From contig NZ_CP126161.1 in the NCBI RefSeq assembly GCF_030127105.1, forward strand, positions 2,728,001 to 2,792,000: DNA of 64,000 nt, in the 5' to 3' direction. The stretch is from Haloarcula pelagica (lineage in GTDB: Archaea; Halobacteriota; Halobacteria; Halobacteriales; Haloarculaceae). This document shows, one piece after another, positions 10,063-64,000 of this stretch. Below the pieces are notes generated by a model. That model did no database searches and was not told the origin of the DNA. It worked only from the letters and a program-made list of their open reading frames with translations. Every line of letters starts with the position of its first letter. The first letter of the stretch is position 1. Both the position numbers and the translations under genes were made by a program.

Positions 10063-10904
10063 TGGCAGACAACCCCGACAACAAGAGCAGTGACGCCGAC
10101 GCCAACGAGGAGGCGCTGACGCAGGGTGACGGCCCCGAGGCCGACATCGAGTCGGAGAAACCCCACGGGGGCGACCCCGAGGACCCCGACCAGGTCGCCG
10201 AGGAAGCCGAAGACGACGAGATGGAGCTGACCGACATCAGCGGTGTCGGCGACGCCAAGGCGGAATCGCTCCGCGAGGCCGGCTTCCAGACCGTCGACGA
10301 CGTTCGCGGTGCCGATCAGTCGGCACTCGCCGAGGTCACCGGCATCGGCAACGCGCTCGCCGCGCGGATCAAGGCCGATGTCGGTGGGCTCGAAGTCGAA
10401 GAGGAGACCGAGGCCGAAGTCGAAGAGGAGGGCGAGGAAGCCGAGCCCGAGGAGGGCGTGGAGACGGAACTCCAGCCCCGCGGGCTCGCCGACAAGACGC
10501 CGGACCTCGACGACGAGGAAGCCCGGCTCCTGACCCAGCGCCACCGGGTCGGGAAGCCCCAGTTCAACCGACAGGACCACCACAAGAAGAACCGCGTCTC
10601 GACCTCCTGGCGCCGCCCGCGCGGCCAGCTCTCGAAGCAGCGCCGCGGCATCAAGGGCAAGGGCGACACGGTCGAGGCCGGCTTCCGGTCCCCGACCGCG
10701 GTTCGCGGCAAGCACCCCTCGGGCTTCGAGGAAGTGCGTGTCCACAACGTCGACGACCTCGACGGCGTCGACGGCGATGCCGAGGCGGTTCGGATCGCCT
10801 CGAAGGTCGGCGCTCGCAAGCGCGAGCTGATCGAAGAAGCGGCCGAGGACGCGGGGATCCGCGTGCTCAACCCGACCTACGTGGAAGTGGAGGTGTCGGA
10901 ATGA
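10062..10904 (+). CDS. rpl32e: Ribosomal protein L32e with helix-hairpin-helix extension
   Basis: At 280 residues this is longer than the bare L32e core. The N-terminal half is acidic and contains two helix-hairpin-helix-like repeats ([16 protein letters not shown] at about 61-76 and [17 protein letters not shown] at about 92-108), a haloarchaeal addition. The basic L32e core follows ([20 protein letters not shown], about 172-191). The protein is archaeal/eukaryote-specific. Confidence 0.96.
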
Positions 10905-11350
10905 CCGACCTCTCCGCACAGAAGCGTCTCGCGGCGGATGTCCTGGACGTCGGGAAGAACCGCGTCTGGTTCAACCCCGACCGACAGGGCGACATCGCTG
11001 ACGCGATCACTCGCGAGGACGTTCGCGAACTGGTCGACGAGGGCGCCATCCAGGCCAAAGACGCGAAAGGCAACTCCCGCGGCCGCGCCCGGGAACGCCA
11101 GGAGAAACGCGCCTACGGCCACCAGAAGGGAGCCGGTTCCCGGAAGGGCAAAGCCGGCGCACGACAGAACGAGAAGGAAGCATGGGAGTCGCGCATCCGC
11201 GCACAGCGCGAGAAGCTGCGCGACCTCCGCGACGACGGCACACTGACGAAATCGCAGTACCGCGACCTCTACGACAAGGCCGGCGGTGGCGAGTTCGACA
11301 GTGTCGCCGACCTCGAACGGTACATCGACGCAAACCACGGTGACGAATAA
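10901..11350 (+). CDS. rpl19e: Ribosomal protein L19e
   Basis: The 149-residue protein has the archaeal signature [21 protein letters not shown] and a very basic hinge ([20 protein letters not shown], about residues 61-80) that reaches into rRNA and bridges subunits. It overlaps rpl32e by four bases and shares a base with rpl18. Confidence 0.97.
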
Positions 11351-57935: not shown

Positions 57936-58559
57936 ATGCCAGATGGGGCTCACGACAAAGTCAAACTCAATGTCCGAGTACCTCCCAACAAGAAGCAGGA
58001 GTGGAAGGATTCCTTGGAGGAGGGAGAGACGCTTTCGTCCCTTGTTCGACGAGCAGTTGATCACGAGATCCGCGACGAATATGTCTCGAAGGGCGCTATT
58101 GACGAATTAGTAACACCCACTGATCAGTCAGATATCGATCTTTCATCTCTGACGGATCGGCTCGAGGAAATGCAACAGACCGTAGAAGCTTTTGAGAGCA
58201 AACTCGACACACTGTCGGCGTCAAGTACGGAAGAAGCTGACGGAGACATTGAAAATCTCGCTATGGATCTTCTCCCACGGATTCCAACGTATCCTCAGGA
58301 CATCCCGGAGCATGTTCTACGTAGTGTGGAGGGGACTGGCGACATGGATCCGAAAGAGTATATCAGTTACATCATTCCGGCCTCCCGGAAAGACGAAGAC
58401 TTTCCCCTGATCGAAGGGACAGCACAACGGCTTGCGCGGGAGATGAGAGAACCCACTCCGAAGGTCCGTGAAGCACTCATTTACCTCGAAACAGATACGA
58501 CTGAGAACGTCGAGAGCGCCATCGTTGACGGTGTTCGGCACTGGATGAAAGGACTATGA
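57936..58559 (+). CDS. Ribbon-helix-helix protein next to integrase remnant
   Basis: The 207-residue protein starts MPDGAHDKVKLNVRVPPNKK and has a beta strand plus two helices (QEWKDSLEEGETLSSLVRRA), like CopG-type DNA-binding proteins. A coiled region (RLEEMQQTVEAFESKLDTLS) and a C-terminal helical domain follow. TTTTATTTAG at 57903-57912 is a likely leaderless promoter. It overlaps the truncated integrase by four bases, a RHH-integrase pair like other haloarchaeal integrative elements. Confidence 0.7.
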   Translation: MPDGAHDKVKLNVRVPPNKKQEWKDSLEEGETLSSLVRRAVDHEIRDEYVSKGAIDELVTPTDQSDIDLSSLTDRLEEMQQTVEAFESKLDTLSASSTEEADGDIENLAMDLLPRIPTYPQDIPEHVLRSVEGTGDMDPKEYISYIIPASRKDEDFPLIEGTAQRLAREMREPTPKVREALIYLETDTTENVESAIVDGVRHWMKGL

Positions 58560-59233
58560 GAAACGAAAAAGGCCAGTATTCCAGCCCGGAGGACAAGCAA
58601 ATCTCATCAGAGATGGAAGAACTACTGGGTCTTTATCTCACCAGCCTCCAACAACAGAAATCAAGAACCAAAGAGTCCACACTTGAAACCCGTCGCCGTG
58701 AGGTGCGATATTGGTTGGCATTCTGTGAGTCGAACGATATTGACCCACTTGCAGCGACTACCGACGATGTCAAAGGCTACATCCAGGTCAACACTCACCT
58801 TGCTGACACGACAATCGGTTCGTATTATCGTTCAGTTCAGTCGTTCTATAGTATCGTCGAGAACGACGCCGCAGAGGATCGGCTCGAACTTGCTAACGGC
58901 CATCCCTGCAAAGACCGACACACGATTAATCTGAAGGAAGATTACGACATCCACGAAGACAAGGCGGAATACAAGCTACAGCATGATTTAGTAGCGCAGG
59001 ATATCGACGGTGTCAGAGAAGGATCCAGTGACATACTTGCTCTCAAACCACAACAGGTAGAGTCCCTTTTCGATAACGTCCCGGGAAAGACGCCTGGATC
59101 AAAACTCCGGAATGAAGTCGCTGTGAGATTAAACTGGTATACGGGCTGCCGGAGCGTTGAATTGTCACGGCTGAGTATCGACAACATCGACTGGGACGAG
59201 TGTAGTATCGACGTCCAATGGGCAAAGCTCTGA
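58556..59233 (+). pseudogene. Truncated tyrosine integrase
   Basis: The 225-residue frame has a complete SAM-like core-binding domain (ESTLETRRREVRYWLAFCES at about 41-60) and the beginning of the catalytic domain through the first active arginine (WYTGCRSVELSRLSIDNID). It stops right afterwards, so His-x-x-Arg and Tyr are missing. It is AT-richer than the provirus. It is probably dead, or survives only as a DNA-binding protein. Confidence 0.78.
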
Positions 59234-59335
59234 TAGGATATGGTATATAAATGGTGTGGTGTTTGAGTGGGCACGCGCGCTCTGAGACACCCTGGGACTC
59301 TTAAGCACGGTCCAATAATAATCGGGGTATCGCAG

Positions 59336-60937
59336 ATGTTAGAAACGGAGCGTTCATCGGATGAAGCACTGCGGGAACCGACGTACCGCCGACTTTATCT
59401 CGGTGCTCTGGAGATCGAAAACTCCGAAAGACGATTGAAAGCCTGTTATATTATTCTACTTGGTGGGAGGTTAGGTCTCCGTACTGGTGAGATTCAGCAC
59501 GTTCGAAAGGAGTGGATCGATTGGGATCGCGGAGAAATAGCGATTCCTCGGCACGACCCGTGTACCTGTATGAACTGTTGGATCCGTGCGAAGCAGAAAG
59601 CCGCTGGTGAAGATGAGGACTTTAGGGATGAACTTGAAGAGTTAGTTGAGCGGAAAATGCTCGAGGACTCGGACAGAGACACGGAGGAAGTTGCTGAGAA
59701 AATGTTGCAGGATGATGAGCTACCCGAGGAAGTTTCCGACGAAGATGACGAGGAAGACGCAGATGACGAGGAAAACGCGGATGACGACAGGACACCAGAA
59801 GAGATTCTGTACGAGGAGCGGTGGCAGCCAAAATACGAACGGAGTGCCCGTCGAGTTCCGTTCGGTCATTCCCGACGACTAACAGCCGTTGTCATACAGT
59901 TTATTTCAAACTATGGGTATATGGAAATCACTCAGGTAGCGATGAATAATCTCGTAGAGGAGGCAGCGGAAAACGCTGAGGGGGTAGATCCGGAAAACAT
60001 TACGATTCGGGGCCTTCGGGCCACAGCAGCCACACACTATGCGACTTTTATCCGAAACCCCAAGGCGCTTCAAGATTTACTGGGCTGGACCCGAATCGAA
60101 ACGGCTGTCCGGTACCTTCGTCGTGCAGGCGCATTTACCACCGACGTAGTTTACCACGCGTTTGACGAAGGGGACCTCGCGCCGGCCATGTTCCCAGGAG
60201 AACCCAAGTATCGGTATCCGATTCTCGATAACCCGCTGCCGTATCAAAACGAACCGTACGACCCCATGATGTATCCCAAAGAGAGGCGGCAAGAGACTGG
60301 GCGCTCTCTCACAGAGTCTTCAGTCCGGCAGCTCATTCACCCGAGAGCACAAAATCATCCTGATGAACTTGATTACGACCCGGACAATCATCAACTGCTC
60401 ACTCACGAAGATTATGAAGATGACATTCTCGATCGCGGTGGGTTAACTATGTTTGAAGCACCAACGCTGGCGGAATTTTACGAGGACCACGAACGGCTGT
60501 CAGGATCCACTGTATCAGACCGTTCAAATCGTCGGTATGAATCGAAACAAGAGTGGGAGGAAAAGCATATTTGGCAGAGTGAATTATTTGAAAACCACGG
60601 AGAAGAAGACGAAAACCGTTTACCGATCCGAGGAGCAGCCTCAACGATTCTCATCACGTATCTTAAGTTTGTTGAGTATTTTGGTGATCGTCTGTCGACT
60701 CTGCTCAGTGGACACACTTCTGGACCAGTAGATACCGAGTCAAAACCACTTTTGGGGATCATGGGAATGGGAGCCATTGTTTCTATGCTCGTGATTATTT
60801 TCAGTCAGGTGGGAATCCTAAACTTGCAGACAATGTCGTTTCAGTTCCGCCCGCTGATACTCGTTTCACTTGCCATTGCTCTGTATACGGCCTACAAACT
60901 CCCCGACTTTGAGTCGATGAGTGAGATATTCAACTGA
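59336..60937 (+). CDS. Tyrosine recombinase with C-terminal membrane segments
   Basis: From the ATG at 59336 (MLETERSSDEALREPTYRRL) the 533-residue protein has the first catalytic Arg in GGRLGLRTGEIQHVRKEWID (about 47-66), CMNCW in a finger-like insertion, and an acidic insertion of about 60 residues. ITIRGLRATAATHYATF follows (Arg kept, the usual His replaced), then LLGWTRIETAVRYLRRAG with the Tyr. Two hydrophobic helices near the end (about 440-462 and 475-510) would place it at the membrane. CTTAAG at 59300-59305 is a possible promoter. Start upstream at 59267 is less likely. Confidence 0.75.
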   Translation: MLETERSSDEALREPTYRRLYLGALEIENSERRLKACYIILLGGRLGLRTGEIQHVRKEWIDWDRGEIAIPRHDPCTCMNCWIRAKQKAAGEDEDFRDELEELVERKMLEDSDRDTEEVAEKMLQDDELPEEVSDEDDEEDADDEENADDDRTPEEILYEERWQPKYERSARRVPFGHSRRLTAVVIQFISNYGYMEITQVAMNNLVEEAAENAEGVDPENITIRGLRATAATHYATFIRNPKALQDLLGWTRIETAVRYLRRAGAFTTDVVYHAFDEGDLAPAMFPGEPKYRYPILDNPLPYQNEPYDPMMYPKERRQETGRSLTESSVRQLIHPRAQNHPDELDYDPDNHQLLTHEDYEDDILDRGGLTMFEAPTLAEFYEDHERLSGSTVSDRSNRRYESKQEWEEKHIWQSELFENHGEEDENRLPIRGAASTILITYLKFVEYFGDRLSTLLSGHTSGPVDTESKPLLGIMGMGAIVSMLVIIFSQVGILNLQTMSFQFRPLILVSLAIALYTAYKLPDFESMSEIFN

Positions 60938-61081: not shown

Positions 61082-61255
61082 ATGATTACTGATTTGGAGG
61101 GTAGGAAGTCAGGTGCTGTTCTGGAGGAGATCCATACTGTCTGTACCGACGTGTGGGCCGCAGCACAAAGAGGGTCTGAAGAGTTCTATCCGGCGACACA
61201 CGCGCTCCGAACGGCAGGGAGCGACTGGAGAGACGTGTTGAGGTGCGTTTTATAG
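61082..61255 (+). CDS. Doubtful 57-residue gene in AT-rich gap
   Basis: A frame opens MITDLEGRKSGAVLEEIHTV and ends overlapping the HNH gene stop in the opposite direction. It may be a remnant. The rest of 60938-61249 is AT-rich with poly-T runs (about 60975-61010) that may end transcription of the recombinase gene. Confidence 0.3.
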   Translation: MITDLEGRKSGAVLEEIHTVCTDVWAAAQRGSEEFYPATHALRTAGSDWRDVLRCVL

Positions 61256-62344
61256 GTCTGTTCGGATTTCCTCCATCGCTTGGATCAGTATCTCGAGTTT
61301 GGTTTGAATGTTCGATTCCTGACTCTCGTCAGTCAGTGACGTCCTCTCGTCACCGGACTCTTCACCATTCCGTGATGATTCTGCCGAGTCGGCATCGTCA
61401 CTTCCATCGGATTCTGCTGTCTCGTCCGACTCACACACGGTATCGAGACGCTGTTGCTCGTCGGTCTCAACGTGAGCGTCTGTAAGCGAGGGCTCTCCTT
61501 CCTGTGACGCGTCTTTTGACGGCCGCCCGCCACGGCTGAACGCGTCCAGCGGGAAGTCGTAGGCGTAGGCTCGCTTGGCCTTGTTGAACGTCGTCCGCCG
61601 GGACACGCCCAGGACGGCTTCGACCGCACTCCGATCGCAGTCACGATCGAGTGCCTGTCTCACCAACTCGTCTTCCATGCGCTGGAGGAGGAGCTGTGGG
61701 TCATCGGGGATGTCCCCACGGACGGAGTTTTCGATCTGGCTGGTCAGGCCCCACTCCCCGGTTTCGACGTCCTTGTCGACGACCTGTTCGTCACGGTCAT
61801 CGACGCGATTGTCGAGCCCCATCAGCACCCACAGCCGTTCCCGAACCGCCGAAACCGACAACTCCGTCGGCAGGCCGGCAGTGATATCGCCGGTGCGCTG
61901 GGGGCCGTTCCGCTCCAGGTACTGCAGGATCTCGATATCCTGGGGCAGCAAGACACTCTGGTCGGCATCGGTCAGGTCGACCGGCGAGTCGGCCGGCGTC
62001 GACTGCTGGTGGAGCCAACTGTGACAGGACCGGCACAACAGGGAGAGGTTCTCGGGGTCGTGCTCGTCCATCCCCTCGACATCGCGGTCGAGGTGATGAA
62101 CATGGAGTGTCGCCAGCCCGCCTCCTTCCGGGCCGTATCGGCCACAGGACTGACACCGGTGGTTATAGGTGCTGAGGATCTCTCTGCGGGTCTCCGGTGC
62201 AACGGTCTCGTTGCACGTCTGGGGATCCTGCTGGTCTGTTCGCTCGTCACTCTGGGTGACTGGACTGTTCTCGTCGTCAGATGGTTGTGGTTTCGTCTGT
62301 GCCATCTCTGGATATTCTATCGCCGCAGTTGGTCGTCGGCCCAT
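61250..62344 (-). CDS. HNH endonuclease with helix-turn-helix end
   Basis: The 364-residue protein has an acidic N-terminus, then an HNH nuclease domain with CQSCGRYGPEGGG (about 62-74), HVHHLDRDVEGMDEHDPENL (about 79-98) and CRSCHSWLHQ (about 102-111), complete with the zinc cysteines and catalytic histidines. Residues about 130-265 carry winged-helix-like and helix-turn-helix parts (EAVLGVSRRTTFNKAKRAYA). The tail is very acidic. The ATG at 62305 (MAQTKPQ) is an alternative start. It lies downstream of the DnaQ/RAMP gene pair on the same strand. Confidence 0.8.
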   Translation of the reverse strand: MGRRPTAAIEYPEMAQTKPQPSDDENSPVTQSDERTDQQDPQTCNETVAPETRREILSTYNHRCQSCGRYGPEGGGLATLHVHHLDRDVEGMDEHDPENLSLLCRSCHSWLHQQSTPADSPVDLTDADQSVLLPQDIEILQYLERNGPQRTGDITAGLPTELSVSAVRERLWVLMGLDNRVDDRDEQVVDKDVETGEWGLTSQIENSVRGDIPDDPQLLLQRMEDELVRQALDRDCDRSAVEAVLGVSRRTTFNKAKRAYAYDFPLDAFSRGGRPSKDASQEGEPSLTDAHVETDEQQRLDTVCESDETAESDGSDDADSAESSRNGEESGDERTSLTDESQESNIQTKLEILIQAMEEIRTDL

Positions 62345-62438
62345 CGCTGCTCTCTGTGGTGTATCGCTTCACTCCGCAGCCGCCATCGGGTAGTTCGTCC
62401 CGGATCCAGTCAGCAAGTTGCTGCCTCTCAGCCACCGC

Positions 62439-63107
62439 TCATGGCGTCCGTATCGGTGACAGCGACTTTACCTGGAAGTCCGATTTCGCACAGTAGCGCT
62501 CGGCTATACGGCCAAGCGCCGCCGTCCGCAGTATATCCGCCACGTTGTGCAGGACGAGCGACGTGAACTCCGCGTCGTCGAACGCCTCGACAGCTTCCCC
62601 GCTCTCCTCGAAGGGGTCAAGCTCGTTGGCCTCACCATCACAGAGGACGGCATACGCTGTCTCGAGATCGGCGTGGTCCTGCCCATCGACCTGCGTGTTG
62701 AACAGATCGTCGATGACCGGGTATAGATCAGCGTATGGCACGTCGACGAACGGCCAGGTCAGGCCACACGATGCAAACCGCGTTCGGAGGAAGGGCAGAT
62801 CGAACCCGCCGTTCCACGTCTCCCCGTTGTAGGCCGTGAGCAACACGTTAGCACCCTGAAGCCGGTCTCTGACGTACGACGAGAACGCGCGGAATAACTT
62901 CGCCTCCGAGGTGTGCATTGTCAGGTCGACGTGCTCGTCGGTCTTTGCCTGGACTGTCTCTTCGACGTCTCCCCAGTCGCGGACGCCCGTCTGGCAGAAC
63001 ACCCGCATACCGACGGGGAAACAGAAGCCGACGACTGTCACTTCATCCGTCCGGTCGAAGCCCGTCGTCTCGATATCGAACGCGACGAGGTCCAGTGGGT
63101 CACTCAT
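62439..63107 (-). CDS. DnaQ-like (DEDD) 3'-5' exonuclease
   Basis: The 222-residue protein has Exo I LVAFDIETTGFD (acidic pair at about 11 and 13), Exo II-like YNGETWNGGFDLPFLRTRF (about 92-110) and Exo III-like LVLHNVADILRTAAL (about 190-204), the ordered acidic motifs of RNase H-fold proofreading-type exonucleases. It starts in an ATGA overlap with the RAMP-like gene, so the pair are translated together. It may be the nuclease arm of an HRAMP-type system. Confidence 0.82.
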   Translation of the reverse strand: MSDPLDLVAFDIETTGFDRTDEVTVVGFCFPVGMRVFCQTGVRDWGDVEETVQAKTDEHVDLTMHTSEAKLFRAFSSYVRDRLQGANVLLTAYNGETWNGGFDLPFLRTRFASCGLTWPFVDVPYADLYPVIDDLFNTQVDGQDHADLETAYAVLCDGEANELDPFEESGEAVEAFDDAEFTSLVLHNVADILRTAALGRIAERYCAKSDFQVKSLSPIRTP

Positions 63108-64000
63108 CAGGCCTCACCTCCCCGGGCACTATCGCTACGTGCTGGCACTCGATCCGCACTCGTCGGCCGCAACCGGAACTCACCGAATCCGTATTTCGCG
63201 TGCGTGCCAACCCGTTTGATCCCGTTTTTCGCCGTCCGAACCGGGTCCGCCCCGGCGAAACTGACCACCTGTCCGTGGTCGACCGTCTCGAGAGCGTAGG
63301 CGTCTCCGCCGTCCTGCAGTCGCGTCTCCCGGCGCCGCAACGGCCTCTCGGGGTCCCACCACCACGGCACGTCCTGGTCGTCAGCACCAGGATAGTCACT
63401 CGCCAGTACGTACGGAGTGAGCAGTTCCAACTGCAGTTCCGTGTCTCTGAGCCGACTGTAGGACACCTGGTCCAGGTCGACCAATTGTGAATCGACGAGC
63501 GAGAGTTCGCCGAAGCCGTAGTTTCGCGCCCCGCCGACGCGCAGGGTCTCAAGGGTAGTCTCGTCGACCGGGAGGACCCCCGCGTCGGATTCGGCGTGCA
63601 GATAGCAGTGCAAAAACCACCGCGCGGTTCGCTGGGACTTTTGCATCTCCGGTGGGCGCCCGGACCGACAGGTGGACGCGAACGCCAGTCGGTCACCGTA
63701 GCGCTGGATATCATGCACGTTGTGGGCGTCCCGTGGGGGCGACTCCAGCAACCAGCGCTGGGCCACATCACGGTACAGGAACAGATCAGCGTATGTCTCA
63801 ACCCGTGGGAGCGACGACCCGAGCGTTCCGGCGCGGCCCGTCGCCGAGTGTTCCGGTGGATACTCGCCGTATTCGCCCGGGACGAACACGCCGTGACTCG
63901 CCTGTAGGGCCTGGCGAGTCCGACCATCTACTCGCCGGCCGAGAGCGTTACACAACGCATGCCCCGTCACGAAATACGGGTGGCCGGCGTAGTCCGTCTC
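63107..64000 (-). CDS. RAMP-superfamily (Cas5/Cas7-like) protein, HRAMP-type, start outside window
   Basis: At least 297 residues are visible, since the frame stays open to the window edge (ETDYAGHPYFVTGHALCNAL). A GTG at 63970 is an internal candidate start, but the conserved-looking upstream residues argue that the true start lies beyond 64000. Two Gly-rich loops typical of RAMP proteins occur: GGARNYGFGELSL (about 156-168) and HAKYGFGEFRLRP near the end. No CRISPR repeat is visible. With the neighbouring exonuclease and HNH genes, this resembles the haloarchaeal HRAMP loci described as derived class 1 systems. Confidence 0.68.
   Translation of the reverse strand, partial: ETDYAGHPYFVTGHALCNALGRRVDGRTRQALQASHGVFVPGEYGEYPPEHSATGRAGTLGSSLPRVETYADLFLYRDVAQRWLLESPPRDAHNVHDIQRYGDRLAFASTCRSGRPPEMQKSQRTARWFLHCYLHAESDAGVLPVDETTLETLRVGGARNYGFGELSLVDSQLVDLDQVSYSRLRDTELQLELLTPYVLASDYPGADDQDVPWWWDPERPLRRRETRLQDGGDAYALETVDHGQVVSFAGADPVRTAKNGIKRVGTHAKYGFGEFRLRPTSADRVPARSDSARGGEA

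Follow-up and report, generated by a model that had tools for sequence, protein, structure and literature searches.

The last three genes of an operon were found at the end of a 64,000-nucleotide (nt) stretch of Haloarcula pelagica DNA (RefSeq assembly GCF_030127105.1, contig NZ_CP126161.1, positions 2,728,001 to 2,792,000), which is called the window here, and the remainder of the operon lay past position 64000. The operon is assigned below to HRAMP (haloarchaeal RAMP), a kind of locus reportedly described by Makarova et al. in 2019. Coordinates above 64000 continue the numbering of the window, 52000 being added to a position in locus L002 to obtain the window position; loci are labelled L###, and gene starts were set by homology. 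The operon would be read leftwards in the order (small Cys/His gene), Cas7-like gene, a conserved gene here called UNK, linker open reading frame (ORF), Cas5-like gene, DnaQ-like exonuclease gene and HNH nuclease gene (Table 1).

The Cas5-like frame was cut by the window edge, and the start conserved in its family was the GTG of VTHIQQ, 33 nt past the window. Base 63107 was shared by the stop of the Cas5-like gene and the ATG of the DnaQ-like gene (TGATG), which indicated translational coupling, and the DnaQ stop was separated from the HNH start by 94 bases. A first-pass annotation, made from the letters of the window, had read here a RAMP protein with two Gly-rich loops, a DnaQ-like exonuclease translationally coupled to it and, after these, an HNH nuclease. 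All three genes proved to be real and in that order, and the arrangement was not due to chance, since homologues stood in the same order in dozens of haloarchaeal genomes.

Table 1 Features of the operon in the window and past its end (ORB, origin recognition box; HTH, helix-turn-helix)
Feature	Coordinates	Strand	Remarks
HNH nuclease gene, last of the HRAMP operon	61250..62344	minus	364 aa; Pfam HNH
DnaQ-like / RNase_H_2 3'-5' exonuclease gene	62439..63107	minus	222 aa; Pfam RNase_H_2
Cas5-like RAMP gene (predicted)	63107..64033 (in window 63107..64000)	minus	308 aa; PADLOC Cmr3 and AlphaFold2 model
Cas5-like, first Gly-rich loop GGARNYGFGE	63506..63538	minus	invariant residues
Cas5-like, second Gly-rich loop GTHAKYGFGEF	63176..63211	minus	invariant residues
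Linker ORF	64030-64077 (beyond window)	minus	15 codons, VRHQHSSGNGGGVLA
ORB-like element in linker ORF	64039-64059 (beyond window)		
Conserved protein UNK	64074-64907 (beyond window)	minus	277 aa
Cas7-like gene (predicted)	64904-65872 (beyond window)	minus	322 aa; overlaps UNK
Small Cys/His gene, shortened	65875-66150 (beyond window)	minus	
HTH-like gene	66351-66584 (beyond window)	plus	

Identity of the RAMP proteins and nucleases

Single-sequence Pfam and NCBIfam searches with the two RAMP genes gave nothing clear, and the PADLOC models were then matched by family. The Cmr3 models matched 42 of 44 members of the Cas5-like family (best E 1.6e-8), and the Csm3 models matched 19 of 36 members of the Cas7-like family (best E 1e-6). 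The residues of both Gly-rich loops (G167, R170, N171, G173 and G175; G276, H278, G282, G284 and E285) were invariant across the 44 Cas5-like homologues. The AlphaFold model of the Cas5-like protein had a pLDDT of 78 and a pTM of 0.80, and its Foldseek matches in the Protein Data Bank (PDB) were type III-D and III-B effector subunits, Csm4-like chains and Cas6, with E down to 4e-7. From these profiles and this model, the product is predicted to be a Cas5-like, Cmr3-like RAMP protein, and that of the gene past the window edge to be Cas7-like, resembling Csm3. Both agree with the first-pass annotation, by which the partial product should fall inside the RAMP fold and a Cas7-like gene should lie upstream.

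The model of UNK, a helical protein, was of high confidence (pTM 0.90). Its PDB matches were weak and nearly all to Csm1/Cas10 (best E 0.04, TM 0.34-0.41 for most), PADLOC and NCBIfam searches with it gave nothing, and its hhalign alignment with Cas10 was not significant (P 0.24), the single match pairing RHDVHK with the HD motif. A reduced Cas10 is therefore suggested only as a hint from the modelled fold, rather than an identification.

Both nucleases were recognised by Pfam, the DnaQ-like product by PF13482 RNase_H_2 (E=7e-6) and the HNH product by PF01844 (E=1e-8). The catalytic residues D11, E13, D103, H187 and D191 of the former were invariant in 26 homologues, as were the residues CxxC..HH..N..CxxCH of the latter in 22. 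In about ten loci the place of HNH was taken by a protein of about 240 aa (family 10; L034:13289-14023 and relatives) with a PD...ExV...K-like pattern and no match in a Pfam search, which, from this pattern, is possibly the PD-(D/E)xK nuclease named for HRAMP.

Membership in HRAMP and distribution

HRAMP has been described as an array-less, type III-derived system containing Cas5 and Cas7 together with alternative nucleases, of which HNH and PD-(D/E)xK are the commonest (PMC8730458, PMC12669027). A defensive role that depends on RNA has been predicted for it in the literature. At the locus studied here, a diverged Cas5 homologue (Cmr3 profiles; type III subunits by AlphaFold and Foldseek), a putative diverged Cas7 homologue (PADLOC Csm3 profiles) and an HNH nuclease were present, in a haloarchaeal host like every named relative, all of which were Halobacteria. 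The further conserved uncharacterised protein of the published systems was represented by UNK, whose gene in most loci separates those of Cas7 and Cas5 and which was equated with it by description only. No CRISPR arrays or array-like repeats were found in the window, in L002 and L003 or in the 40 kb around the window end, and a Cas1 search of the genome gave none, Haloferax volcanii being found as the positive control. Because of the gene set, the lack of cas1 and of any array nearby, and the agreement with the published summaries, the locus was filed as HRAMP, the array-less system that the first-pass annotation had proposed. We put the probability that it is a complete HRAMP operon, a fresh instance of this known kind, at roughly 70%. 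Two results weigh against it. Sequence-profile searches of the PDB using the Cas5 and Cas7 alignments found nothing, so that the RAMP assignment rests on the PADLOC profiles and the fold, and the structural alignments of the Cas5-like protein reached a TM of at most about 0.47 with a large root-mean-square deviation.

Of the 392 genomes of the order, 96 (45 of 95 genera) had homologues of Cas7, as did 22 haloarchaeal plasmid records; none was found among phage records. An isolated, very diverged homologue (33% identity) lay close to a CRISPR array and cas1 in L076 (G039:C1:1200000-1218000). The neighbourhoods of about 80 loci were compared; as these are mutually related, locus counts here and below are not independent. 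They fell into two branches, Cas7-UNK-Cas5-DnaQ-HNH and Cas7-UNK-Cas5 alone. The former, to which the window's locus belongs, recurred in about 40 loci, sometimes with family 10 in place of HNH, and a small Cys/His protein and a small divergent HTH-like gene usually stood ahead of it.

Compared with the published HRAMP systems, which share the diverged Cas5 and Cas7, the further conserved protein, the HNH nuclease, the missing array and the haloarchaeal hosts, the window's branch nearly always carries a DnaQ-like exonuclease between Cas5 and HNH. This nuclease is not named, and the linker elements described below are not mentioned, in PMC8730458 and PMC12669027. ARAMP loci of Asgard archaea, as summarised in the literature, are likewise array-less RAMP loci with alternative nucleases, but most have a Cas1 homologue, whereas the window's genome has none. 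The resemblance to the type III CRISPR-Cas effector (Csm/Cmr) extends from Cas7 (Csm3) and Cas5 (Cmr3) to the third protein, whose fold is weakly like Cas10/Csm1; in contrast, full Cas10, Cas6, array and cas1 are missing from the HRAMP locus, and DnaQ and HNH stand in the operon instead.

The linker ORF and its origin-box-like elements

A gap between UNK and Cas5 was present in 39 loci, and in 37 of them a single ORF bridged it, its start overlapping the UNK stop (usually as GTGA or ATGA) and its stop overlapping the Cas5 start by four bases. The coupled frame was free of stops in 25 non-duplicate long gaps (combined dinucleotide-shuffle probability about 1e-38, a figure that is overstated because some loci are related), and indels between relatives were mostly multiples of three. 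Substitutions were distributed over the codon positions as 238:257:247, compared with 260:152:687 in Cas5 of the same pairs. These even proportions indicated that the frame was preserved and the protein sequence was not; no selection on the linker amino acids was detectable, and an ordinary protein gene was thereby ruled out. The window's genome had the shortest form of the linker, with one ORB-like element. Fifteen gapless HRAMP loci had no linker, which ruled it out as an essential HRAMP part, and its elements are accordingly not essential to every HRAMP.

Long linkers held tandem copies of ACTGGAAACGGGGTGTG, also written ACUGGAAACGGGGUGUG, and 32 of 36 spacings between copies were multiples of three. 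There were 57 copies inside linkers versus one elsewhere in the loci, and all 14 exact occurrences of this 17-mer in the 392 genomes fell within HRAMP linkers. The element was read in different frames by two groups of loci (LETGCV versus TGNGVC); the variable positions largely coincided, which indicated that selection acts on the nucleotides.

Haloarchaeal ORBs are repeats with a terminal G-string (PMC3528665), and the linker element likewise has a GGAAAC core followed by a G-string. A near-identical motif, ACTGGAAACGTGGTGTG, formed inverted clusters on other replicons, near an orc/cdc6 gene in five of the six checked, with up to 16/17 identity to the HRAMP core. In the window's genome, weak matches to this core flanked or adjoined orc/cdc6 genes on contigs 3 and 4, and the chromosomal boxes next to orc/cdc6 read TTCCACTCGAAACGAAGGGGTG in an inverted pair (oriC1). 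A fixed ORB pattern gave 4.55 matches per kb in linkers versus 0.019 elsewhere, and an ORB-like upstream match in 13 of 39 linker loci versus 2 of 965 control genes; this pattern was devised after the HRAMP core had been seen. Scoring against the host's oriC1 box was less circular. Over the 45 nt before Cas5, linker-bearing loci averaged 13.8 of 22 matches versus 9.7 for other genes, and 23 of the 39 exceeded the 99th percentile of the controls. The score in the window's genome was 15, reached by 0.1% of controls, and the average of the gapless loci was not raised (10.5).

Unlike ORBs, the linker elements lie inside an operon and share one orientation, all 55 found by the fixed pattern being on the same strand and none on the reverse, and no orc/cdc6 gene was found in the examined flank of any long-linker locus. 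As neither inverted boxes around an AT-rich stretch (the linkers are G-rich) nor an adjacent orc/cdc6 gene occurred, a replication origin was rejected. A classical array with acquired spacers was rejected as well: the stretches between elements were common to several species and often similar to one another rather than unrelated, and most linkers had no phage match. An Rfam search of seven loci, linkers included, gave no match. Hairpins with C-GUGGUG-G loops were found in one linker group (22 of 38 seeds with at least six further pairs versus 0 of 117 elsewhere) and were absent from the remaining groups.

Some lineages varied. The linker of L104 (about 10521-11135) was enlarged in frame by an insert of about 240 nt that had internal repeats of its own, and the coupled frame was open over 614 nt, where about nine stops were expected. 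In L042, L044, L046, L048 and L049, another lineage-specific repeat (around ATATGGTCGTGCGGTGAGTC) replaced the core element, and most of these loci carried an oriC1-box-like element (CCACTCGAA..GGGGGTG) before Cas5. In L062 and L067, two loci without a linker, orc/cdc6-like genes (L062:6557-7465 and L067:6530-7441) lay directly downstream of Cas5 on the same strand, which is a weak second link to replication initiation.

The linkers of L077 and L035, from different genera, shared 27 identical nt with Halorubrum virus BJ1 (NC_008695.1:20340-20366), and Humcor1 (MW344765.1:43799-43825) matched the same sequence at 26 of 27 nt. In both viruses the matched sequence lay about 300 nt from tRNA-Phe, either outside coding sequence or where a gene begins, and Orc1 was encoded elsewhere in the genome. 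No second copy of the box was found in the scanned parts of BJ1 and Humcor1, and the match is therefore not established as a viral origin; a viral ORB, a decoy for the HRAMP element and an exchange long ago are all conceivable. Other linkers, including the short one of the window's genome, had no phage match, and the viral contigs matching the element core were set aside as not evidently haloviral.

It is unusual, and new to us, that a translated linker should keep its frame strictly, show no selection at the protein level and carry copies of an origin box.

Functional readings and genomic neighbourhood

HRAMP poses a puzzle, having CRISPR effector subunits without a source of guides, and linker repeats resembling origin boxes may bear on how it recognises invaders. 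One reading, which we hold only as a tentative possibility, is that the linker is a translational device and nothing else, a purine-rich, Shine-Dalgarno-like leader with a short ORF coupling Cas5 to the preceding gene, the ORB likeness being incidental. The ORFs overlapping at both ends and the flat substitution pattern, by which only an open frame would matter, are what it predicts, and GGAGGGGTG sits a few bases ahead of the Cas5 start. Yet upstream ORB-like matches were far rarer in control genes, the internal tandem copies have no following start codon although their 17 nt are conserved across genera and read in two frames, and BJ1 and Humcor1 carry the element outside any such ribosome-binding context.

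It is doubtful, though arguable, that the elements are DNA sites at which binding of Orc1/Cdc6 from host or invader acts as a switch, block or timer for HRAMP expression, or which titrate the initiator of an invader. Their near identity to the inverted boxes beside orc/cdc6 genes, the likeness of the Cas5-upstream element to the host's own oriC1 boxes and the orc/cdc6-like genes of L062 and L067 point this way, and an ORB cluster has been proposed to negatively regulate oriC2 in Haloarcula hispanica (PMC4010727). Against such sites stand the single orientation of the elements, where origin boxes form inverted pairs, and their position within the operon rather than at its promoter.

The single orientation and the nucleotide conservation in two frames would favour a role at the RNA level. 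HRAMP might then be a hard-wired, non-adaptive RNA-guided system whose own linker supplies an ORB-bearing, guide-like RNA; the complex would recognise the origin boxes needed by Orc1/Cdc6-dependent viruses and plasmids, and HNH and DnaQ would attack there. The frame would stay open without amino-acid conservation because the linker must remain translatable for Cas5 production, and mismatches or masking would be needed to protect the origins of the host. The lack of the elements in gapless loci argues against any role required by every HRAMP, and we consider the guide function unlikely. If it is true, HRAMP would be derived from CRISPR and aimed at one fixed target, the box at which its enemies initiate replication, and if the elements were guides or sensors, the puzzle would become testable in culturable haloarchaea.

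Borrowing of guide RNAs in trans from the ordinary CRISPR arrays of the cell is very unlikely: cas1 was somewhat more frequent in HRAMP genomes (40 of 96 versus 91 of 296 others; odds ratio 1.6, p=0.06, not significant), but 56 of the 96, the window's genome included, had no Cas1. Although the small gene ahead of Cas7 has been shortened in this locus and most of its cysteines are gone, and some HRAMP loci elsewhere are broken, a decaying, non-functional type III remnant is highly improbable given five full-length genes with intact overlaps, the invariant catalytic residues of both nucleases and the third-position excess in Cas5 of relatives.

For the operon as a whole, the best supported account from this analysis would be a type III-derived RAMP complex that defends the cell by means of its HNH and DnaQ nucleases. 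The Cas7-like protein would assemble into a filament on RNA, with the Cas5-like protein and UNK as its cap, and the resulting ribonucleoprotein would bring both nucleases to invading nucleic acid.

We infer the defence role from the genes of HRAMP and from its neighbours. The window's copy lay near a DpdA-DpdC fusion (971 aa) and a second DpdA-like gene (G000:C1:2801299-2805644; L003:1299-5644), past the window, with QueC/D/E-like and FolE-like genes farther out; this cluster is probably a 7-deazaguanine DNA modification system. Other HRAMP copies adjoined BREX (BrxL, PglZ), DISARM-like (DrmMI, DrmD), Pbe (PbeC), Druantia-like and type IIG genes. The host defence island of the first-pass annotation has the support of these neighbours only. 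As to the integration hotspot said to lie alongside, a tyrosine-recombinase gene, apparently split, occupied 58556-60937, and no tRNA genes were found within 40000-64000 of the window. The recombinase matches ran over two adjacent frames (N-terminal 58556-59233, C-terminal 59267-60937), which may be one broken gene or two genes. Past the window, a superfamily 1 helicase of 751 aa (L002:15739-17994) resembled MkoA of defence systems.
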